Assembly: GCA_014728085.1 (NCBI GenBank)
Contig: WJMF01000173.1
Coordinates: 1-46,723 of the forward strand
Reading direction: 5' to 3'
Length of the DNA: 46,723 nucleotides
From: Candidatus Zhuqueibacterota bacterium
GTDB lineage: Bacteria; Zhuqueibacterota; Zhuqueibacteria; Residuimicrobiales; Oceaniaggregativiventaceae
Shown here: positions 11,102-27,395 of the stretch, one piece after another
Numbering within the stretch: the first letter of the stretch is position 1
Layout: every line of letters starts with the position of its first letter
Made by a program: the position numbers and the translations under genes
The notes under the pieces: generated by a model
Database searches by the model: none
What the model was told of the DNA's origin: nothing
The model's input: the letters and a program-made list of their open reading frames with translations, nothing else

Positions 11102-14962
<3,861 letters not shown>

Positions 14963-15737: not shown

Positions 15738-18700
15738 TTATTTCAGCAGCGTTAATTTTCTCACCGTTCTTTGCGTTTCACTGTCAGACCTGAAAAAAGC
15801 GCGTAACAAATAGACACCGCTGCCACAGGGTTGTCCCATATCATCACTTCCATCCCAGGAGAGCCTGTACAGTCCCGCGGGTTTTCGGCCATTGATAAGA
15901 CGCTTTACTTCCTGGCCCATAAAATTATAAATCGCGATGGTTACCCTGCCCTCTTCCGGAATGGCGATATCCACATTTGTCCGGTTATTAAAAGGATTGG
16001 GATAATTGGGGTAAACATGAAAAGATTCCGGCAAGGTGATGTCTTTCGATTCGGATGCAACGGGGATATTCTTTTTCGGCAGGGAACTGCCTTCGACCAG
16101 GCGCAAATAGTCAAAATAGGCAACCAGAGAGACGTCCGGATACCAGGTATTGCCGATAAGACCGATCGCTGTCGGCGTCTGGGTTACCGTCAGCGTGACG
16201 GCGTTCGACCAACTGCTCTCGGAAACGGCTTTATATTCAAAATAATAGGCGCTGTTTACCTTGCGTATACGCAGTTGAACAATGTTTCCGCCATAATAAT
16301 AGAGAGAGGCAAATTGACCCTCTCCCGTGCGAAAGAGTTTGATGACATTGGTATCATAATTGTATCCGAAATAGAATATATCGGTTTCTGAAAAATAGAC
16401 TTCAAGACCGATAATAAATTTATTTCCGGTATAGGCATCGAGTTCGAGTTGGGTCTCTGCTTCCCAATTGTCAAAAGTGAGCTCCCGGCGCAGCTGGGGA
16501 GCATCGTCCTTGCCGGTCCAGTGGTGATAGGTCTCGCCCGACGGCACATCCAGTTTTAAAAATCCGGGACGATCATTAAGATCAAAAGTGGGACCGGCTT
16601 TTGGAATATCGACAACATAATTATCAAGGCTGGTATCAAACTCCTCATCGATCTGTGACTCGGGACGGACCCTGAGCGTAAAAGAGGCGGTATCCTCGTC
16701 TGCTGTGGCCTGTGAATCGGTGGTCTTGAAGGTTACAACAACCGTATCCGCCGCCGAAGGCGTGCCACTGATGACACCGGTTGCGGCATCGAGCGACAAA
16801 CCGGCAGGTAAGCTTCCGTTCTCTACAGACCAACTATAGGGTACAACGCCCCCCTCTGCTTCCAGTTGAGCTGAATAGATATCGTTCAGCCGCGCAGAGG
16901 GAAGAGAGACGGTTGTAATTTGAACAGGTTCGATACCGGCGATAACCAGCTCAAAGGTATGGCTGGTACTGTCAAATGGCGCCTGGCTGTCCTTAACACC
17001 AATGGTAAACTGAAACGTACCGCTTTCACTCGGCGTGCCACTGATCCTGGCCAGAAGGGGATCAAACGATATACCTGTCGGCAGTGAACCGCTTTGCATG
17101 TTCCATTCATAGGGCGCAACACCATCGTGTGCATGCAAATCCTGTTCATACAGATTCCCCCGAGTTCCGGAGGGCAAAAAGGCAGTGGAAATTTTCAGCG
17201 GATAGGGATTATCCGGCTGCATTTGAAAAAGTTGATCGCCCTGTACATTGGAATAGGTCACAACATCTCCGTTGCTCAGCACAACCTTGATGTCGCAGTG
17301 CGTATGTGCACCCAGGCCGAAGTGAAGCGGGGTCTGATTCTGGCTCAGATAACCATAATTCGAAACCACCTGTTGATACCCCAAACGATAATTATCGTCA
17401 TTGAGATGACCGGCAACATAGAGGGTTACTTTGGCACCATAACCGCCATAGTTATTGTCCGATCCAATACAGAGTATATCGATATAGTGATTCGAGGTCT
17501 GCAAATCATTTTGAATCAGAAAATTTTGTCCATCTTTGCAGGCCACATAGTAATCAATATCACCATCGTTATCGATGTCGCCATAGCCGCCGCCGCGGGC
17601 ATCAACCGCACTAACTTCCAGAGCAGGGTAATTGCCCGGTACTAAGCCACTGGCTCCGTCGTTGAGGTAAAGTTTTGGCGTGGCGCCGGGTTCCTTTTCA
17701 TCGTTTTTGATGAGATACATGTCCGGGTCGGTATCGTTATCGACATCTCCAAAAAGGACGGTATAACCACTTACCGGGATGTTGAAATCAGCAGACATAT
17801 CTACAAAGGTTCCGTCACCGGCATTCCTGAAAACCCCCAGAAGAGGGACAGGCCCGCCTGAGAGGGCAAAATTGACCGCGAAAAGATCCAGATCACCATC
17901 GTTGTCAAAATCGGTAAAGGTGGCGCCATTGGTACGGCCACCAACCGCCACACCACGAGGCCCCGCCTGCTCTGTAAAATTACCCGTACCGTCATTGACA
18001 AAAAGCCAGTTGGGCGCATTATGAATTGATTCCTGTCTTCTGCTCACATAGACATCGATATCACCATCATTATCAAAATCAACAGCTGTAACCCCCTGTT
18101 GGCCGAATACATCCGGATTTTCATCAGGACCCTGCAAACCGCGATCCTCACGGGTAAATTGCCCCGCTCCGTTGTTGATATAAAGCTCATTGGGATCACC
18201 CCAGTTAACCGCGTAAATATCCAGGTCGCCGTCGTTTTCGATATCAAAAGCCACAGCACCACGCGTGCCGTTGTTTTCTGTCGAAATACCGGCCCAGTCC
18301 GTGATATCGGTAAAGGTACCATTGCCCTCGTTTTGATACAACCGGTTCCTGCCCTCCGGACTGGAGGCATTGAGCGGCATGTTGGCAAAAAAGAGATCGA
18401 GGTCTCCATCGCCATCAAAGTCGGCGTTGACAATGGCATGCGAAAGGCCGGCATCGCTCGTCCCCCGTAAAGCAGCCTGATCATCAAACAGATTGCTGCC
18501 ATTATTGATATATAAATGATCCGGAATACTCAGATCACGGACGGCATTGCTGACGAGCAAGTCCATTCGGCCATTCTTGTCCACATCCGCAAAAGAAACG
18601 CCATGGCCGTAACCATTGGCGGAATATCCGCTCGTTCCTGATGACTGGGTAATATCGGTAAAGGACAACTGATGCGCAGCCCCTTCGGTTTCAAACCACT

Positions 18701-21700
18701 GGTCTGCTGACTGGGATTGATTGTCTTTAGCATCCTTGACGAGTATTCTCAGATGATAGACAGATTGTGCCTGCAAACTGCCGAGATCAACCCGGAAAGC
18801 ATTCTGAAAAACGGTGGAAAGCGGTGTCAAATTACCATAGCTCGTATCTGTCCCCCATTCCACCTGGCCGATAGATGGCTCATCCGTATTCCAGGTCACC
18901 GTAGCGCTGTTCTGGGTGATATTGATAATACGAATATTGCTGATGGACGGCGGCGTCGTATCACCGGGATCTATAACACGACCAAAATGAAGCACAGTAT
19001 CATTCTGATAGGGAGAGGTCAGGTTATACACATTTCCGCCGTAGACATGTCCCATATCCGTGCTGTTTCCGGTTTTGGGATCATACCAGGAAGCGAGAAA
19101 GACCTGTGTGGCGGATGACATATCCACTTGAACACTACCGCCGTTCTGGAGGTAGATAACATATTCTGAATCCGGATTGGCCAAACAGTAATTCCCCTCC
19201 GATACCCATTCATTATGCGGCTCCATGCTGTAATACCGGACTCCGTTCATAAAATCGGACAGGTAGGTCATATATTGTGCACCCGGACTGTTAAGCTCAT
19301 CGAGCTTGATGATGAGCTCCTTGCCCGTGTAGGTATATTTATTGCCATAGGTAAAATAACCGCCACCGAGTACAATAGCCCAGGCCCGTTTACGCACCTC
19401 GTCCGCGGTTAGATTATTATAAGCATAATAAGGAGAGCTGGGGTCTGTCGGTCCTTCATAGCCGAACTCATCATTGGCGACCAGAATATTATAGCTTCTG
19501 TCATCTATAATTTTTGCATTGACAGAATCGGGTATCAGTCGAATTTGCTGCATGATATAATCCAGCCAGCCTGAAAACTCTGCATAATGAGCAGAGTTTG
19601 ATTCGTCACCGCTTGGATGAATGGAAATGGGATGATCGTAGGGATCATACTGTTCAACCACATCGCCATGATAGCTGTATTCAGAAGGCACGCTTTCTTC
19701 GGTATATTCACCCGAAACGATCCACTGAACATTATAGGCGGAATATCGGGAAATGCAATAGCGCACAAATCGTTCAAACTGATCCTGCGTATAATCGATA
19801 AATGTTTGCGCCCAGGTAAATACAATACCCGGCATAATGCCCTTTGACAGCATATACTGCACGCGTTTATCCACATATTGAAAGAAGGACGGCTGCAAAC
19901 GATCCCGATCTTCATCATTGAGCCATAAATAACCGCCTTCGTTCAAGGTCGGATCTTCAATATGATCAATGCTGCCATAGAGAGAATTAAATCCCTGAGA
20001 TGCCCGTGCATCAACAAAGGGAATGAATAGACTGTCATAATCCGCATTTTTACTTCTGTACATACGCCACGACGTATCTCCCATGCGGAAAAAAGGCGTA
20101 CCGTCGTCATAAAAATAGTGGTATCCGTTCACTTTGACAAAGCCATGGCTGGAAGAAGAGATACAGTTCAACATCCCGGTCTGTCCGTCCAGCAACGGAT
20201 CGTTTGATTGAACGCTGTAATACCAGGAACCGACAGCGGTGGGTGCAAAACGCACTTTAAACAAATTATCGCCCACCCAAAATCCTTCAAGAGTAATGGT
20301 TTTGCTGTCGGGGCCGTTAAAGGTCACTGTTAAGGTCACATCTGTATACGGATTGGTATGATTTCCGCCAATAAAAGGTAGATCCTGTGCCTGATAGAGT
20401 TCGATATCTCCGATACTTTCCTCGGGCAGAGCATTGATGTACATATAACGCGTTTGCGAATCAGTGCCCCCGCCACCGGTGGCGGTAAGCGTGACGGTAT
20501 ATTCGCCCGGTGTCAGATAGGCATGATAGGGCTCCTTTTCATTCGAATGCGCTGAACCATCGCCGAAATCCCACTCCCATTGATCTACCGAGCCGGTGGT
20601 ATGATTGAAAAAACGCACCGCAAAAGGTACGGCTGCTTCGGTGGGATCAGCGGTAAAATCCGCAACAGGCGGAGGCGGTGGTACTTCTGCCGTGATATAA
20701 TCCTCCCGAATTTTATGATCGGTTTCTCCTTCACCGGTGACGGTAAGCTGTACCGTATAGATGCCGGCCTCGCTAAAAATATGCTGGGGATTTTGTGCCG
20801 TGGAAGGTGAGGAGCCATCACCGAAATCCCATTGCCAGGAATCGACATTACCGGCGGAAGAGTCATAAAATTGTACGGTCAATGGTATGTACCCCCGAGT
20901 GGTGTCTGCGATAAAATCAGCATAAATGGACTGGGAGTCTTGGTTCAGGCGCAAATAATCAAATTTGGCAGTTAGGGCATTCCCGCTGGAAGCAGTTTTG
21001 GCGATCAGCCCAATGGCAATCGGGGTTAGTGTGTTGCTGTCACTGGTTAAATTTATCCACGTTGAGGCTCCCTCCTGCCGGTAATCAAAATAACAGGTAT
21101 TGCCGATTTTTCGAATGCGCAATTCAACGCTGCTGCCACCGCCATAACTTTCCAGGGTGCCAAGCTCTCCGGTTGTCGACCGGGAGGCACTGAGGGTGGT
21201 AACTTGATCCGTAAATCCCCATGTATAGAGATCATCATAGTTATAGTAGACCAAAAGCCCCACCTTGCAGGAGTTGCCTTCAGTAAAGGACAGATCAAGC
21301 CTGGTTTCAACCTGCCAATCTTCTGCCTCGATTGTACGCCTCAATTGCGGTGCGTCATCAACGGTTTCCCAGTGATTATATCCCGCATCTCCCGGGACAT
21401 CAAGCTGTAGATAACCATCCCATTTGTCGGATCCGAATGAAAATGTAGGACCGGATTTGGGAATATCCACGATATACCCGTTCAGGCTTGAATGAACGAA
21501 TTCTTCATCAAGATAGGGTGCGCCGTATATCTGCAGGGAAAGGGCTTGTTGATCAAATGAGCCCAAAGAATCTTCCAGCTGAACGGTAAAGGCGAATGTG
21601 CCCGAATCCGACGGTGTTCCCGAAATGACACCGCTCAGGCTGTCTACCGCCAATCCCGACGGCAGCGAACCGGAGGTAATAAACCATTTGTATGGTGGAA

Positions 21701-24700
21701 TGCCCCCCTGGCCCTCCAATGTCTCGCTGTAATAATTGTTATACGTTCCGGAGGCCAAATCAGTCGTCAGGATGTTCAGAGGCGCAATCGGATCGATTTG
21801 CAGCTCAAAACTTTTTTCAGCACTGTCGGAGAATGTTTGCGCATCTTTGACGCGGAAGGTTAGCATGGTGGTATCGGCAACCGTGGGTTTTCCGCTCAAT
21901 AACCCATCCAGGCTATTCAAACTCAATCCGCCGGGCAGCGTACCATCGACGAGTTGCCAGGTATATGGTGACAACCCTCCCTGAGCCTGGAGCTGATAGC
22001 TGTAATCTTCATATGCGCTACCATGAGGCAGCGTATCACTGGTTACCGAGAGCGACGGAAGCGCTGTAATTTCCAGTGAAAGTGTTTTATCAACGCTATC
22101 CGAAGGCACATGACTGTCATATACCCGAAACGTCAAATCAACAGTATCCGCCTCTGTGGGCAAGCCCTGCAGGGTACTGGTGGTGGGATCAAATGTGATT
22201 CCGGCAGGGGGTGTTCCGCTGACCAAAGACCAGGAATACGGCGGTGTTCCGCCGCCGGCTGTTAGAGAATCGAGATAAGCGCTGTATTCGCTTCCGCTTT
22301 GAAGAGAAGAATTGGTAATCACCAATTCATCTCCCCGCAGTCGCAGATAATCAAAATCAGCAACGACTTGGTTGCCAATATTCCAGGTGTTTCCTGTCAA
22401 GCCGACGGCCAGTGGTTGTGCCGATGAATAATAGCTGCCGGCACCTATCCATTCATCTGCCCCTTCGGCGCGATAATCAAAATGATAGTCAGAGCCGATC
22501 TTGCGTATCCGCAGCTCGACGCGATTACCACCTGTATAATAAACCGGAAAATAATTACCAACGCCGCTGTGAAACATTCGTAAAGCACTTGTATCCTTGA
22601 AAAACCCCCAATAGAAAATATTGCCGGCGGAAAAATAAACTTCCAAACCTGTCACAAAGTTGGCATTTGGTGTAAAAGTGACCAACTCCATCAGGGTGGT
22701 AATTTGCCAGTCACCTTCACCGACATCGCGGCGCAGTTGCGGTGCCTCATCGCTGCCGGACCAATGCCAGTAGGTGGTGGTGGCGGGAATATCCAGGCGC
22801 AAATAACCATCCCACTTTTCGGTACCAAATGTGAATGTCGGGCCCGCTTTGGGAATATCAACAGTGTAGCCATTTAAACTTTGACTGACAAATTCTTCAT
22901 CCAACAGGGGTTGATCCGAAATAGTAAGGGTAAATGATTTGCTTGTTTCAGCGGATCGATCATCCTTTAAGGTGACTGTGAATGAAAAATCTCCGCTTTC
23001 TGCGGGGGTACCGCTAAACGCACCGCTCAAACTGTCCAGAACGATTCCGCCCGGCAGACTATCCGCATCTACATACCATTTATACGGCGTCACCCCGCCT
23101 GCCCCCTGCAATTGTGCAGAATAGGGCACACCGGTGGTTCCTCCCGGCAATCCGCTGGTTTCTATGACCAGAGGAGGTATGTCCGCAATGCGCAACTGTA
23201 GATTTTTATCGGTGCTATCAGCAGGAACCTGACTGTCTTTAAGTCGAATGGTTAACAGAACGGTATCGGCAACAGAAGGGGTACCGCTGATCTCCCCGGT
23301 CAGCTGATCGAGGCTTAGACCATTCGGCAATACACCGTTAACGATCTGCCAGCTATAGGGAGGCATCCCTCCCGACCCTGTCATCGTGGCATTATATGGT
23401 GAGCCGACCTGACCCGCCGGCAACGTATCAGAGACAATAACAACGGCTGCAAGGGATTCAATTTTTAGTTGCAATGTTTCATCTGCACTATCGGCAGGTA
23501 CAGCGCTGTCGTGAACCCGAAAAGTAAGGTCAAGCGTATCCGAAACAGTCGGCGTACCGTTTAGCACACCGTTACTATTCAGCAAAAGTCCGTTTGGCAG
23601 CGTGCCGTTCACAAGCGACCAGGTATACGGACTTGAACCGCCGGAAGCGATCAGAGTATCTGCATAGGGAGAATAGGCTTGCCCGCTTCTCAAAGAGGTG
23701 GAAGTGATACGCAATGCGTCTCCCCCCAGGCGGAGATAATCAAAATCAGCGACGATTTGATTGCCGATATTCCAGGTGTTTCCGATCAAACCAACAGCCT
23801 GGGGTTGCTGCCCTGACCAGTAATCGCCGGCAACGATCCAGCTTGCCGCACCTTCGGCGCGATATTCGAAATAATAAGTGTTCCCCTCTTTGCGAATTCT
23901 CAATTCAACGATATTACCGTCAGTATAGGTCACCGGAAAATAATTACCGATACCGCTGTGAAACATTCGCAATGAACTGATATCGCGAAAAAATCCCCAG
24001 TAAAATATATCGCCGGCGGAAAAATAGACTTGAAGACCCACCACGAAACTCGCATCCGGCGTATAGGATGATAATTGCATCCTTGTGGTCACCTGCCAGT
24101 CGCCTTCGCCAACGTCGCGGCGCAGCTGCGGCGCTTCATCACTGCCGGACCAATGCCAGTAGGTGGTCGTGGCAGGAACATCCAGACGCAGATATCCGTC
24201 CCATTTGTTACTGCCGAACGTGAAGGCGGGACCGGCTTTGGGAATATCAACCGTATAACCGTTCAGATGTTGCTGGGTAAATTCTTCATCAATAAGGGAT
24301 TGCGGTTCGATATCTACAGTAAAAGAGCGGTCGTCCGTTCCGGATTCAGAGTCGGTTACCTGGATTGTGAAGGTATAAAATCCGGCCAGCGTGGGGATGC
24401 CGCTGATGTTACCGGTGGCATTGTCGAGCAAGAGGCCGTTGGGCAATACGCCGGAAGTCAGATCCCACTGATATGGCGTCTGACCACCCTCGGCTTCTAC
24501 TGTGGCATTATACAACACGCCCTCGGTTCCATCCGGTAAAGAGGTGGTGACGATCTGCAGCGGCGGCTCACCCGATTCGACAACTACAGACGCGTTGTTG
24601 CCGGCGGTTGAAAATTTTATCCAGACATAATTGTTATTGTTATCGTGATACCAGCCGGATGCATTCAACTCAAAGTCGGCAAACGTGGCTTTCTCGCCGA

Positions 24701-27395
24701 GCAGAGTATTATTGAGCTTGACCGCTTCCGGAAAATCGGCATATTTTACCTTGAAGATATAATCTTCACTGCTGCTCGAAACGGTTATATGCGTTGAATC
24801 GCTATTCTGAATACAGGCAAAAGCAATGTCCGTTTTTTCTTCCTGACGCAGAGTAAATCCGGACAAAGGCGCCGGATAGACAAGCATGGTCAAATAGCCG
24901 GCTGATTGGGTGCTGCCATGTCCTGTGATGCCATCACGGACATTCATCGGAATAAATGCGCCTTTACGTACAAAAATCGGATAGCGGTCCAAAGGAACGT
25001 TATAGGCGGAAAGAGTACTCCCGCCGGAATGGACATTGTCATCGTTCCAGTAATCGACCCAGTTATCTCCTGCCGGAAACGTAATCGATCTGCTGTTTGT
25101 ATTTTCATAAATGGCGGCAACAAAGAGATTCTCACCGAGCAGGTATTGCCAGGTGCCGCTTTGAGGATCGACAAGGGAGACCCCCTGGTTATGACTGCGC
25201 ACCCCTTCGCTGTAAAGGTAGGGAACCAGCTGGCTGTGTAATTTGGCAAAGTAGCGATAGATTGTCGTGGTTTCAGAATCGTACATCCAGGGGCGGTGTT
25301 CGCCCAGACCTCCATTTTCCATTAACGGCGACATGGCACCGAATTGGGTCCAGCGGATAAGCAATTCCCTGGTAATCGGTGTTTCTCCGGAAAATCCACC
25401 GATATCGGAGCCGATGGCGATAAAGCGACGGTCTGCAGCCAGATAAAAATTGGTCAGAGCATTCAGAAGGCCGTCACTTCCCCAGGTATGTTGCTGATCC
25501 CCTAGCCAGTTGAGCGGCGAATAGGCGAGCGGCACATAGGTCGAATCCGCAGTGTTGTCGTCATAGGGTTTGTTCATCGTGATTGCATATTTACCGGCCC
25601 GTTGCAGGGTATATTCATAAAAATCCCGATAATGCAACGTGCTATAGTCCTTTTTGGAGATGGTTCCCGTATAACAGGAAGCGTTATCAGGCATTCGGCG
25701 GTTTCCGGCATCGACTTTCCAGCCATCGATACCCATCATCAAAACTTTGTCCATTTGACCGTGCCACCAGGCGACCGCCCCGGGGTTCGTATAATCGATA
25801 AAACTGCCATACCCTTTCCACCATTGATAGAGGGCACCGTCATCTAAAAAGTAACCGCGACTTTTTGCATAATCGTAATTCGGCGATTTGCCATTAAAAG
25901 ACCCGCTGAGATCTTTTTCATTGATCAGGCTGGTGATCCAGGTAATAACTTTGATGTCCATTGCATGAAGGTCATCAACCAGTTGTTGCGGAGTGGGATA
26001 GCGGGCGGGATCGAAAATAAACGAGTTGTATTTTGTTTCCCAGGGGCTGTCCAGTATCACCCCACCCACCGGAATATCCCGGCTCGCGTACCCCTGAACC
26101 AAATCTCTAACCGCACTTTCGCTATTGTCTATATCTTCCCATACCCAGGGTTCATAAATCCATGCCGGTGGTATCGGGTTTTTATCGTCAACGACAAAAA
26201 CCTCCACCGTGTAGGATTGAGTTATGGTTTCAGTCAATAGATTATCATCATCGACCTGAATGGTAAAATTATAGGTCCCCTCAGCAGTCGGCGTCCCTGC
26301 GATGAGACCGCTACTGCTTTGCAGTACAAGCCCGTCCGGCAGACTGCCGCCGGACACACTCCAGTCATAAGGAGGTATTCCGCCCTCTACCTTGATCGTA
26401 TCGGAATAGCTTTTATCTTGAATGCCGTTTAACAACTGATCATTTGTGACGATTAACGGAGGAACGGGTTGGATATCGATGGAAAAGTCTTTACCAGCGG
26501 TATCCGCCGGCGTACTGCTGTCGATAACCTGAACGGTAAAAGACTGATTTTCAACCTGTGTGGGGGTACCGCTTATCGCTCCGGTAGAGGTGTCCAGGGT
26601 CAATCCATTGGGAAGAGAGCCTTGTGACAGTGACCAGGAATAGGGTTGAGTACCGCTTGCAGCTTGTAGCTGTTCATTATAGGCTATTCCGACATTACCG
26701 CCACTCAATGAATCCGATAAAATCAGAACTTTATCACCCTGAAAACGCAAATAGTCAAAATCAGCATCTATGGCATTGCCGGATTTCCAGGTGTTGACGA
26801 TCAGACCCACCGCCTGGCAGGCGGCACCGGAATAATAAGTACCTGCCTCATTCCAGATCCCGCTTCCTTCTTCCCGGTAGGAAAAGGTGTAAATATTATC
26901 CTCTTTTTCAATCAGCAACTCAACTGTATTGCCGCCGGTATAGACGGTTTCCATATAATTACCGACACCGCTGTGATACATACGCAGAGTATTGCTGCTG
27001 CGGGAAAACCCCCAATAAAAAAGCTCGGTTTCGGAAAAATAGACCATCAACCCCGTGATAAAAGTTGCATCATGGGTAAAAGTTGAGAGCTGCAGTCGCG
27101 TCTCGACCTGCCAGTCATCAGAGTTGATATTGCGGCGCAGCTGTGGCGCCTGATCCGATGTAGACCAGTGCCAATAAGTATCCGTTGAAGGAACGGATAT
27201 GCGCAAACAGCCGTCCCATTTATCCGTTTTATGGGTAAAAGCCGGTCCCGCTTTTGGAATATATTGAATATATCCATTTAGGCTCCCGCTGGTAAACTCT
27301 TCATCAGGTGCCGATTGTGATCCCACCCGGACCGGAAAAGCCAACGCCACGAACAGTACAACTGATATTGCGAATAGATAAAATTTTCTCATCAT
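15738..27395 (-). CDS. Giant T9SS-exported multimodular glycoside hydrolase (GH31 + DUF5060/DUF4038 + UnbV)
   Basis: A 3885-residue protein. The start is ATG 27395 (GGAG 8 bases upstream; a GTG at 27404 has no spacing). Domains: signal peptide 1-28; beta-sandwich module copy 1 (31-218); two putative-Ig (He_PIG) domains; GH31 (~406-942) with likely nucleophile Asp562 in GWKVDAGN, acid/base Asp633 in WLGDQQHTW, and GSDIGGFSG; one He_PIG; copy 2 (1036-1222); three He_PIG; copy 3 (1499-1684); three He_PIG; copy 4 (1963-2150); two PKD; DUF5060 (~2327-2405); DUF4038 apiosidase-like barrel (~2412-2720) with Glu2563 in SGEYTEE and Glu2643 in NDEFGYEG; FN3 (~2812-2900); seven FG-GAP calcium loops and UnbV/ASPIC (~2905-3391); two He_PIG; copy 5 (3583-3765); T9SS sorting domain (~3793-3885, YPNPFN). 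Probably a cell-surface or secreted polysaccharide degrader; exact substrates unknown. Confidence 0.9.
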   Translation of the reverse strand: MMRKFYLFAISVVLFVALAFPVRVGSQSAPDEEFTSGSLNGYIQYIPKAGPAFTHKTDKWDGCLRISVPSTDTYWHWSTSDQAPQLRRNINSDDWQVETRLQLSTFTHDATFITGLMVYFSETELFYWGFSRSSNTLRMYHSGVGNYMETVYTGGNTVELLIEKEDNIYTFSYREEGSGIWNEAGTYYSGAACQAVGLIVNTWKSGNAIDADFDYLRFQGDKVLILSDSLSGGNVGIAYNEQLQAASGTQPYSWSLSQGSLPNGLTLDTSTGAISGTPTQVENQSFTVQVIDSSTPADTAGKDFSIDIQPVPPLIVTNDQLLNGIQDKSYSDTIKVEGGIPPYDWSVSGGSLPDGLVLQSSSGLIAGTPTAEGTYNFTIQVDDDNLLTETITQSYTVEVFVVDDKNPIPPAWIYEPWVWEDIDNSESAVRDLVQGYASRDIPVGGVILDSPWETKYNSFIFDPARYPTPQQLVDDLHAMDIKVITWITSLINEKDLSGSFNGKSPNYDYAKSRGYFLDDGALYQWWKGYGSFIDYTNPGAVAWWHGQMDKVLMMGIDGWKVDAGNRRMPDNASCYTGTISKKDYSTLHYRDFYEYTLQRAGKYAITMNKPYDDNTADSTYVPLAYSPLNWLGDQQHTWGSDGLLNALTNFYLAADRRFIAIGSDIGGFSGETPITRELLIRWTQFGAMSPLMENGGLGEHRPWMYDSETTTIYRYFAKLHSQLVPYLYSEGVRSHNQGVSLVDPQSGTWQYLLGENLFVAAIYENTNSRSITFPAGDNWVDYWNDDNVHSGGSTLSAYNVPLDRYPIFVRKGAFIPMNVRDGITGHGSTQSAGYLTMLVYPAPLSGFTLRQEEKTDIAFACIQNSDSTHITVSSSSEDYIFKVKYADFPEAVKLNNTLLGEKATFADFELNASGWYHDNNNNYVWIKFSTAGNNASVVVESGEPPLQIVTTSLPDGTEGVLYNATVEAEGGQTPYQWDLTSGVLPNGLLLDNATGNISGIPTLAGFYTFTIQVTDSESGTDDRSFTVDIEPQSLIDEEFTQQHLNGYTVDIPKAGPAFTFGSNKWDGYLRLDVPATTTYWHWSGSDEAPQLRRDVGEGDWQVTTRMQLSSYTPDASFVVGLQVYFSAGDIFYWGFFRDISSLRMFHSGIGNYFPVTYTDGNIVELRIRKEGNTYYFEYRAEGAASWIVAGDYWSGQQPQAVGLIGNTWNIGNQIVADFDYLRLGGDALRITSTSLRSGQAYSPYADTLIASGGSSPYTWSLVNGTLPNGLLLNSNGVLNGTPTVSDTLDLTFRVHDSAVPADSADETLQLKIESLAAVVIVSDTLPAGQVGSPYNATMTGSGGMPPYSWQIVNGVLPNGLSLDQLTGEISGTPSVADTVLLTIRLKDSQVPADSTDKNLQLRIADIPPLVIETSGLPGGTTGVPYSAQLQGAGGVTPYKWYVDADSLPGGIVLDSLSGAFSGTPAESGDFSFTVTLKDDRSAETSKSFTLTISDQPLLDEEFVSQSLNGYTVDIPKAGPTFTFGTEKWDGYLRLDIPATTTYWHWSGSDEAPQLRRDVGEGDWQITTLMELVTFTPNANFVTGLEVYFSAGNIFYWGFFKDTSALRMFHSGVGNYFPVYYTGGNRVELRIRKIGSDYHFDYRAEGADEWIGAGSYYSSAQPLAVGLTGNTWNIGNQVVADFDYLRLRGDELVITNSSLQSGSEYSAYLDSLTAGGGTPPYSWSLVSGTPPAGITFDPTTSTLQGLPTEADTVDLTFRVYDSHVPSDSVDKTLSLEITALPSLSVTSDTLPHGSAYEDYSYQLQAQGGLSPYTWQLVDGTLPGGLSLNSLDGLLSGKPTVADTTMLTFRVKDAQTFSDSAEKSFELQIDPIAPLNILTTDLASGTYNNYYSETLEGQGGIPPYKWFITSGSLPSGLAVDSLSGVISGTPSDSGTFAFTVQLEDSLGSFDQQALSLQIYGAPYLDEEFVHSSLNGYIVDIPKSGPTFSFGSDKWDGYLQLDVPGDAGYNHWETVDDAPQLRRTIEAEDWQVETRLDLSFTEGNSCKVGLLVYYNYDDLYTWGFTDQVTTLSASRSTTGELGTLESYGGGSSVELRIRKIGNTCYFDYRQEGASTWINLTSDSNTLTPIAIGLIAKTASSGNALTAKFDYLRLNQDSQSIYADFIADTTRGYIPLTVQFYDSSAGNVDSWQWDFGDGSSPSTAQNPQHIFSEAGIYTVQLTVTGEGETDHKIREDYITAEVPPPPPVADFTADPTEAAVPFAVRFFNHTTGSVDQWEWDFGDGSAHSNEKEPYHAYLTPGEYTVTLTATGGGGTDSQTRYMYINALPEESIGDIELYQAQDLPFIGGNHTNPYTDVTLTVTFNGPDSKTITLEGFWVGDNLFKVRFAPTAVGSWYYSVQSNDPLLDGQTGMLNCISSSSHGFVKVNGYHYFYDDGTPFFRMGDTSWRMYRSKNADYDSLFIPFVDARASQGFNSLYGSIDHIEDPTLNEGGYLWLNDEDRDRLQPSFFQYVDKRVQYMLSKGIMPGIVFTWAQTFIDYTQDQFERFVRYCISRYSAYNVQWIVSGEYTEESVPSEYSYHGDVVEQYDPYDHPISIHPSGDESNSAHYAEFSGWLDYIMQQIRLIPDSVNAKIIDDRSYNILVANDEFGYEGPTDPSSPYYAYNNLTADEVRKRAWAIVLGGGYFTYGNKYTYTGKELIIKLDELNSPGAQYMTYLSDFMNGVRYYSMEPHNEWVSEGNYCLANPDSEYVIYLQNGGSVQVDMSSATQVFLASWYDPKTGNSTDMGHVYGGNVYNLTSPYQNDTVLHFGRVIDPGDTTPPSISNIRIINITQNSATVTWNTDEPSIGQVEWGTDTSYGNLTPLSTVFQNAFRVDLGSLQAQSVYHLRILVKDAKDNQSQSADQWFETEGAAHQLSFTDITQSSGTSGYSANGYGHGVSFADVDKNGRMDLLVSNAVRDLSIPDHLYINNGSNLFDDQAALRGTSDAGLSHAIVNADFDGDGDLDLFFANMPLNASSPEGRNRLYQNEGNGTFTDITDWAGISTENNGTRGAVAFDIENDGDLDIYAVNWGDPNELYINNGAGQFTREDRGLQGPDENPDVFGQQGVTAVDFDNDGDIDVYVSRRQESIHNAPNWLFVNDGTGNFTEQAGPRGVAVGGRTNGATFTDFDNDGDLDLFAVNFALSGGPVPLLGVFRNAGDGTFVDMSADFNIPVSGYTVLFGDVDNDTDPDMYLIKNDEKEPGATPKLYLNDGASGLVPGNYPALEVSAVDARGGGYGDIDNDGDIDYYVACKDGQNFLIQNDLQTSNHYIDILCIGSDNNYGGYGAKVTLYVAGHLNDDNYRLGYQQVVSNYGYLSQNQTPLHFGLGAHTHCDIKVVLSNGDVVTYSNVQGDQLFQMQPDNPYPLKISTAFLPSGTRGNLYEQDLHAHDGVAPYEWNMQSGSLPTGISFDPLLARISGTPSESGTFQFTIGVKDSQAPFDSTSHTFELVIAGIEPVQITTVSLPSARLNDIYSAQLEAEGGVVPYSWSVENGSLPAGLSLDAATGVISGTPSAADTVVVTFKTTDSQATADEDTASFTLRVRPESQIDEEFDTSLDNYVVDIPKAGPTFDLNDRPGFLKLDVPSGETYHHWTGKDDAPQLRRELTFDNWEAETQLELDAYTGNKFIIGLEVYFSETDIFYFGYNYDTNVIKLFRTGEGQFASLYYYGGNIVQLRIRKVNSAYYFEYKAVSESSWSNAVTLTVTQTPTAIGLIGNTWYPDVSLVAYFDYLRLVEGSSLPKKNIPVASESKDITLPESFHVYPNYPNPFNNRTNVDIAIPEEGRVTIAIYNFMGQEVKRLINGRKPAGLYRLSWDGSDDMGQPCGSGVYLLRAFFRSDSETQRTVRKLTLLK
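16098..16649 (-). repeat. Beta-sandwich module, copy 5 of 5
   Basis: Opens DEEFDTSLDNYVVDIPKAG and ends YFDYLRL. It is the most C-terminal copy, between the last He_PIG domains and the T9SS sorting domain, and a few residues shorter than the others because of a gap near the start. Confidence 0.8.
20946..21509 (-). repeat. Beta-sandwich module, copy 4 of 5
   Basis: Opens DEEFVHSSLNGYIVDIPKSG and ends KFDYLRL. It differs in the middle: the FYWGF strand is LYTWGF, and the HSG.GNY loop is replaced by a Ser/Thr-rich loop, so its binding face may differ. It leads straight into the PKD domains without He_PIG domains. Confidence 0.8.
22338..22901 (-). repeat. Beta-sandwich module, copy 3 of 5
   Basis: Opens DEEFVSQSLNGYTVDIPKAG and ends DFDYLRL. 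It shares long identical blocks with copy 2 (SDEAPQLRRDVGEGDWQ and GNTWNIGNQ) and, like copy 2, is followed by three He_PIG domains, so the duplicated unit is probably one module plus three Ig-like domains (~460 residues, ~1.39 kb). Confidence 0.85.
23727..24290 (-). repeat. Beta-sandwich module, copy 2 of 5
   Basis: Opens DEEFTQQHLNGYTVDIPKAG and ends DFDYLRL. It is nearly identical to copy 3 through the first half (WDGYLRLD, ATTTYWHWSGSDEAPQLRR, DVGEGDWQ), which suggests recent duplication or gene conversion. It follows the GH31 domain and one He_PIG domain. Confidence 0.85.
26742..27305 (-). repeat. Beta-sandwich module, copy 1 of 5
   Basis: Coding repeat of ~188 residues. It opens DEEFTSGSLNGY, has APQLRR, LMVYFSE and FYWGFSR in the middle, and ends DFDYLRF. 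This first copy, just after the signal peptide, is more diverged than copies 2 and 3. The fold looks concanavalin/LamG- or DUF1349-like, suggesting carbohydrate binding. Confidence 0.8.

Follow-up and report, generated by a model that had tools for sequence, protein, structure and literature searches.

A 3885-residue KSB1 protein joining a GH31 and an apiosidase-type domain with lectin-like modules and a type IX sorting tail

What may a bacterium do with a single chain of 3885 residues in which two glycosidase domains lie far apart among repeated non-catalytic modules? The gene that raises this question lies in the window, the 46,723-nt stretch of DNA analysed here, which is a complete contig (C90) of a draft genome (5.19 Mb, 97.9% complete, 244 contigs). 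The related organisms form candidate division KSB1, a phylum of which we know no cultured member. KSB1 bacteria carry many CAZymes (PMC9012183). The first-pass annotation had placed the 3885-residue frame correctly at 15738-27395, leaving its strand unstated; it is the minus strand, and translation from the ATG at 27395 meets 0 internal stops and gives a protein of about 427 kDa and pI 4.3. RNA families and tRNAs were searched for in the whole window and none was found. We propose, with a probability of about 0.7, that this protein is a secreted two-enzyme glycosidase, exported by the type IX secretion system (T9SS), whose ConA-like modules hold a target that is most likely a pectin-type branched glycan.

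The domain content had been proposed from the letters alone, and Pfam and NCBIfam searches recovered every class: the GH31 domain and the DUF5060/DUF4038 apiosidase-like barrel, both far above cut-off, the He_PIG domains (about eleven had been counted; 11 stretches, E 5e-123), two PKD domains, the FG-GAP/UnbV region (FG-GAP_3, 6 stretches, E 5.6e-37; UnbV, E 6.8e-11) and the T9SS sorting domain. Exactly five copies of the lectin-like module were located, as predicted, and the four catalytic residues that had been named, Asp562, Asp633, Glu2563 and Glu2643, are all exact (motifs WKVDAGN, WLGDQ, VSGEYTE and ANDEFGYEG). The residue-level map gives this order:

15738..27395, minus strand: whole gene, 3885 aa
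27315..27395, minus strand: signal-peptide-like N-terminus (MMRKFYLFAISVVLFVALAFPVRVGSQSA), read straight from the translation
26727..27317, minus strand: lectin-like module copy 1, aa 27-223 (copy alignment, domain map)
26199..26717, minus strand: two He_PIG, aa 227-399 (Pfam, domain map)
24561..26198, minus strand: GH31 catalytic region, aa 400-945 (barrel 407-729, GH31 third domain 750-815, further beta domain; without the GH31 N-terminal beta-sandwich)
25710..25712, minus strand: GH31 nucleophile Asp562 (invariant in 34 relatives)
25497..25499, minus strand: GH31 acid/base Asp633 (invariant in 34 relatives)
24315..24557, minus strand: He_PIG, aa 947-1027 (domain map)
23706..24305, minus strand: lectin-like module copy 2, aa 1031-1230 (AlphaFold2 model, pLDDT 88)
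22923..23711, minus strand: three He_PIG, aa 1229-1491 (domain map)
22323..22913, minus strand: lectin-like module copy 3, aa 1495-1691 (76% identity to copy 2)
21534..22319, minus strand: three He_PIG, aa 1693-1954 (domain map)
20934..21512, minus strand: lectin-like module copy 4, aa 1962-2154 (domain map)
20430..20924, minus strand: two PKD, aa 2158-2322 (Pfam, domain map)
18960..20423, minus strand: DUF5060, apiosidase-type (PF13204/DUF4038) barrel and Collagen_bind_2, aa 2325-2812 (Pfam, alignment to relatives and solved chains)
19707..19709, minus strand: putative acid/base Glu2563 (aligned to the 4n0r acid/base)
19467..19469, minus strand: putative nucleophile Glu2643 (invariant in 15 relatives)
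18711..18959, minus strand: FN3-like domain, aa 2813-2895 (Pfam E 0.0065, weak; homologous stretch in G007 proteins)
17196..18710, minus strand: FG-GAP propeller and UnbV region, CRTAC1-like, aa 2896-3400 (Pfam; 9etn match)
16665..17195, minus strand: two He_PIG, aa 3401-3577 (Pfam, domain map)
16095..16664, minus strand: lectin-like module copy 5, aa 3578-3767 (copy alignment, domain map)
15762..16004, minus strand: T9SS type A sorting domain / FlgD-like Ig tail, aa 3798-3878 (Pfam, TIGR04183)

The two catalytic domains

The GH31 barrel (E 1.3e-51) and the GH31 third domain (E 3.4e-12) are accompanied by a KxD/WxD-type nucleophile motif and a GD acid/base, and both catalytic Asps are invariant in 34 relatives from KSB1, Chloroflexota, Bacillota, Hydrogenedentota, Acidobacteriota, Planctomycetota and others, a clade that spans at least eight phyla. 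Most of these relatives have 540-660 aa with the barrel close to the N-terminus, most stand-alone ones having about 30-75 aa before it. Pfam found no GH31 N-domain family in the giant or in five close relatives; here He_PIG or PKD precedes the barrel. This beta-sandwich has been described as 'generally conserved in GH31' (PMC9061262); CAZy membership does not hinge on this domain, so the protein stays filed in GH31 as part of a divergent clade. The model predicted without it reaches a pLDDT of 93.7, and the top folds are all GH31 enzymes (TM 0.84-0.86), with the cycloalternan-forming enzyme, FjDex31A, Agd31B and YicI among the matches (TM ~0.85); in the whole-fold comparison alpha-glucan enzymes rank first.

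Which sugar might this domain release? Two residues before the nucleophile, where GII/MGAM-type alpha-glucosidases have Trp, the giant has Lys560, and Lys is invariant in the clade. The role of this Trp has been described (PMC9491548, PMC9061262): in GH31 structures it blocks galactose, as in glucosidase II, whereas Lys allows it, and MYORG, with Lys at the equivalent position, is an alpha-galactosidase (PMC9491548). In our alignment the alpha-xylosidase YicI also has Lys there (FKTDFG). The replacement therefore argues against a standard alpha-glucosidase and does not choose among galactose, xylose or another sugar; judged by this residue, an alpha-galactosidase or alpha-xylosidase seems more likely than an alpha-glucosidase. 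For the Arg that precedes the acid/base in the classic motif, the clade has Lys or Arg further upstream, with an insertion. Gene neighbours were also considered as a guide to substrate and set aside, as they gave no consistent partner (GH29 twice, in Oscillospiraceae and Hydrogenedentota; GH42-like twice; GH28, GH77 and a sulfatase once each). The sulfatase gene lies directly upstream of the stand-alone GH31 in a genome of the window's own family (L046:5448-7004, G001:C263), which suggests a sulfated substrate in that genome. In the open-access literature we found no paper on GH31 lacking the N-domain and no characterised member of the clade.

In the second catalytic block, DUF5060 (E 1.4e-17), the PF13204 barrel (E 1.4e-35; 123.9 bits against a gathering score of 26.5) and Collagen_bind_2 (E 7.8e-8) are consecutive. 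Both acidic residues are present: Glu2563 aligns with the clan-A acid/base of 4n0r and Glu2643 is invariant in 15 relatives, which with the score places the barrel in PF13204/DUF4038. The nearest solved chain is 4n0r, a putative glycoside hydrolase, followed by 8t9w (an apiosidase) and 3kzs/5msy. The GH140 apiosidase BT1012 (5msy) and 8t9w share the PF13204 barrel and align with the giant at the catalytic positions, but in sequence these proven apiosidases are more distant than 4n0r, so 'apiosidase-like' is a family label and not an activity. Some copies of the domain may be inactive, to judge from the one in G008, which is 52% identical to that of the giant and misses the acid/base Glu. In the open-access literature we found little on DUF4038/GH140 and nothing relevant for DUF5060. 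Other large carriers of the domain are a protein of 1834 aa that combines two DUF5060/apiosidase-type domains with four PKD (L048:7257-12758, G001:C124) and one of 3016 aa in which the apiosidase-type domain is joined by five malectin domains, ten BACON_2 domains and a T9SS-type tail (L049:8969-18016, G054:C302).

Lectin-like modules, export and genome context

Eleven copies of the lectin-like module, from two genomes, align at 59% mean column identity. Copy 2 is modelled by AlphaFold2 as a beta-sandwich (pLDDT 88) with a ConA-like fold of the GH43_C2/DUF1349 type: Foldseek places GH43 accessory (C-terminal) domains on top together with the DUF1349-like 3o12/3mep, at E ~1e-7, and also sets it near VIP36/ERGIC-53-type lectins. 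By sequence no PDB chain was matched, and Pfam GH43_C2 matches some copies only, and weakly. At E <= 1e-10 the module occurs in 2 of 82 genomes searched from the phylum, with six copies in the window's genome and twelve in G007, the genome KSB1 Zod_Metabat.1209; at E 1e-3 there are thirteen in G007 and two weak matches in other genomes. In G007 a C25 peptidase and an apiosidase-type/propeller protein bear it too, which makes it a shared module of secreted proteins. The model makes glycan binding likely and the module a candidate new CBM family, but given its peptidase carrier it may not be glycan-targeting. That peptidase has two copies and a T9SS tail (L109:2067-6422, G007:C484), and the sixth copy of the window's genome is on a protein with a T9SS tail that is cut by a contig end (L112, G000:C56:2754-3656). 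The FG-GAP propeller of the giant resembles that of human CRTAC1 (9etn, E 1e-18), which to our knowledge is not fused to enzymes.

The T9SS sorting domain proposed for the C-terminus scores 33.8 bits with TIGR04183, over the cut-off of 23 (36.6 in the genome scan), and the same genome has genes of the apparatus: SprA_N at C27:47188 and a C25 peptidase at C27:40792, this being the one of four C25 (PorU-type) peptidases that shares contig C27 with SprA. At least 150 T9SS tails were counted in this genome. From the tail and the SprA and C25 genes we infer that the giant is exported via the type IX system.

Pectin is a plausible substrate on the genome context, as GH28 occurs above cut-off in seven places and GH78 in 4, of which 3 are strong. 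The first-pass annotation had looked for a substrate clue in the nearby GH2 beta-galactosidase, and this argument is weak. The GH2 gene is real (11123-14962, plus strand) but lies on the opposite strand and is convergent with the giant, with a DUF498 gene between them and no operon, so a shared pathway was rejected as evidence. The window holds no SusC/D genes, and the giant has no co-directional CAZyme neighbours. The GH2 enzyme itself is LacZ-type, and a Laminin_G_3 (ConA-like) domain is inserted (aa 627-801) after its GH2 barrel and before LacZ_4.

We hypothesize that the signal peptide takes the giant into the periplasm and that the C-terminal tail then directs its export by way of the T9SS. 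On or close to the cell surface, the ConA-like modules, spaced by Ig-like He_PIG and PKD domains, would hold a glycan or other insoluble target, on which both barrels could act simultaneously, GH31 as a retaining exo-alpha-glycosidase and the DUF4038-type clan-A glycosidase by removing branch sugars, e.g. apiose. The Ca-type FG-GAP/UnbV propeller may serve in additional binding or as a scaffold. The substrate class would most likely be pectin of the plant type or another glycan with similar branching.

Counterparts in KSB1 genomes and alternative readings

The domain combination at such a size had been called unfamiliar, and it is rare in the collections searched: among records other than nr and metagenome contigs, the pair of GH31 and PF13204 at such a size with the lectin-like module has a single counterpart, in KSB1. 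This is a 4013-aa protein of G007 (JAFGEC010000668.1), from the same order and a different family, in which the same domain classes are joined in one chain. Its order is apiosidase-type, lectin-like module, FN3, GDSL, PKD, propeller, two He_PIG and lectin-like module, then three He_PIG, GH31, He_PIG, lectin-like module, two He_PIG, lectin-like module, He_PIG, lectin-like module and tail, so that the block with GH31 follows the one with the apiosidase-type domain and propeller, the reverse of the order in the window's giant. The GH31 domains are 59% identical, and the apiosidase-type domain of G007 is a distant paralogue (~24% identity). Among 22 genomes of the order a close GH31 was found in five and a giant in two. 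Elsewhere the modules occur in separate proteins: G010 and G014 encode PKD-GH31-PKD-propeller-tail proteins of 1723 and 1754 aa; in G001, a genome from the same family as the window's, GH31 stands in a protein of 854 aa and two apiosidase-type domains in another; and G007 itself has a separate 1608-aa protein with apiosidase-type, lectin-like and propeller parts. These separate proteins, together with the swapped giant, indicate that the order has long possessed the modules, with giant fusions only occasional. The GH31 tree gives no firm branching order within the KSB1 clade, so transfer and parallel fusion are not separable, and we do not claim horizontal transfer of the giant between the window's genome and G007, even though it is between these two that the GH31 domains are most alike (59%) and G001 is the one in the window's own family.

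A more far-reaching reading, which we regard as tentative and on the whole unlikely, is that KSB1 combine a private repeated ConA-like adaptor on giant T9SS proteins with the shuffling of whole enzyme blocks (a GH31 without N-domain and of new specificity, and a DUF5060/DUF4038 enzyme joined to a CRTAC1-like propeller), which would make a covalent, single-chain counterpart of the cellulosome for branched plant glycan.

Could the giant instead serve as an adhesin or structural protein of the cell surface, with catalysis lost in one or both barrels and glycan binding in its place? Non-catalytic modules make up most of the chain, its CRTAC1/UnbV propeller and He_PIG domains are of kinds typical for surface proteins, and both the peptidase that carries the lectin-like module and the G008 relative without its acid/base would fit such a role; yet the giant keeps all four catalytic residues, and the invariance of the GH31 Asps and of Glu2643 among relatives supports catalytic competence, so we consider this improbable. 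We give a similarly low probability to the idea that the barrels act on unrelated glycans and that the fusion only saves on export, the giant being a T9SS carrier that gathered modules without synergy. The opposite block order in G007, its distant apiosidase-type paralogue and the separate proteins just described all agree with it; without selective benefit, however, the meeting of GH31 and a DUF5060-type glycosidase in one chain in two families would be a coincidence, one that a shared supply of modules explains equally. An assembly or annotation artefact fusing two genes, conceivable in a draft of 244 contigs with tandem units of one lectin-like module and three He_PIG within the frame, is dismissed: the longest exact repeat in the frame is ~26 bp and the tandem units share only 64% DNA identity, so that an assembler misjoin is hardly possible, the window has no N, codon-position GC is even along the frame without a break, and a 4013-aa counterpart exists in a second KSB1 genome.

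Comparison with known multi-enzyme proteins

The two-enzyme, T9SS-exported glycosidase that we favour has a near likeness in the G007 giant, which shares GH31, a DUF5060-type glycosidase, FN3, PKD, FG-GAP/UnbV, He_PIG, five lectin-like modules and the T9SS tail, and differs, besides the reversed blocks and the paralogous apiosidase-type domain, by an extra GDSL esterase and HYDIN-like domains. Nothing was found in the open-access literature on KSB1 giants. CelA-type enzymes of Caldicellulosiruptor are smaller than the giant. Like it, they have two catalytic ends with repeated modules between (GH9-CBM3-GH48; PMC6892212), but they are free cellulose enzymes with no T9SS. CelAly and similar GH and PL fusions of marine flavobacteria (PMC13235733) also join two catalytic classes with Big-type and unknown binding modules and act on a mixed cell wall; the activities of CelAly (GH5 and PL31) are proven, whereas those of the giant are predicted. 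The multi-catalytic T9SS CAZymes of Bacteroidetes ('Ca. Paraporphyromonas polyenzymogenes', FjChiA; PMC5831590) share with the giant several catalytic domains, a T9SS C-terminal domain and a place outside a classical PUL. Those enzymes are GH5, GH8/GH11, GH5/GH26 or GH18, the six-GH5 proteins having ~1900 aa, in contrast to GH31 with a DUF4038-type domain in 3885 aa, and in KSB1 rather than Bacteroidota.

Multi-catalytic T9SS CAZymes were already known; what is new, among the records searched, is the combination of families and the size, together with the swapped-block counterpart, the lectin-like module confined to 2 of 82 genomes of the phylum and the GH31 clade without N-domain and with Lys for Trp, itself a concrete target for new specificity. 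If active, the giant would rank with the larger multi-enzyme glycosidases, and the fusion of CAZymes in blocks for export by the T9SS would reach beyond Bacteroidota.
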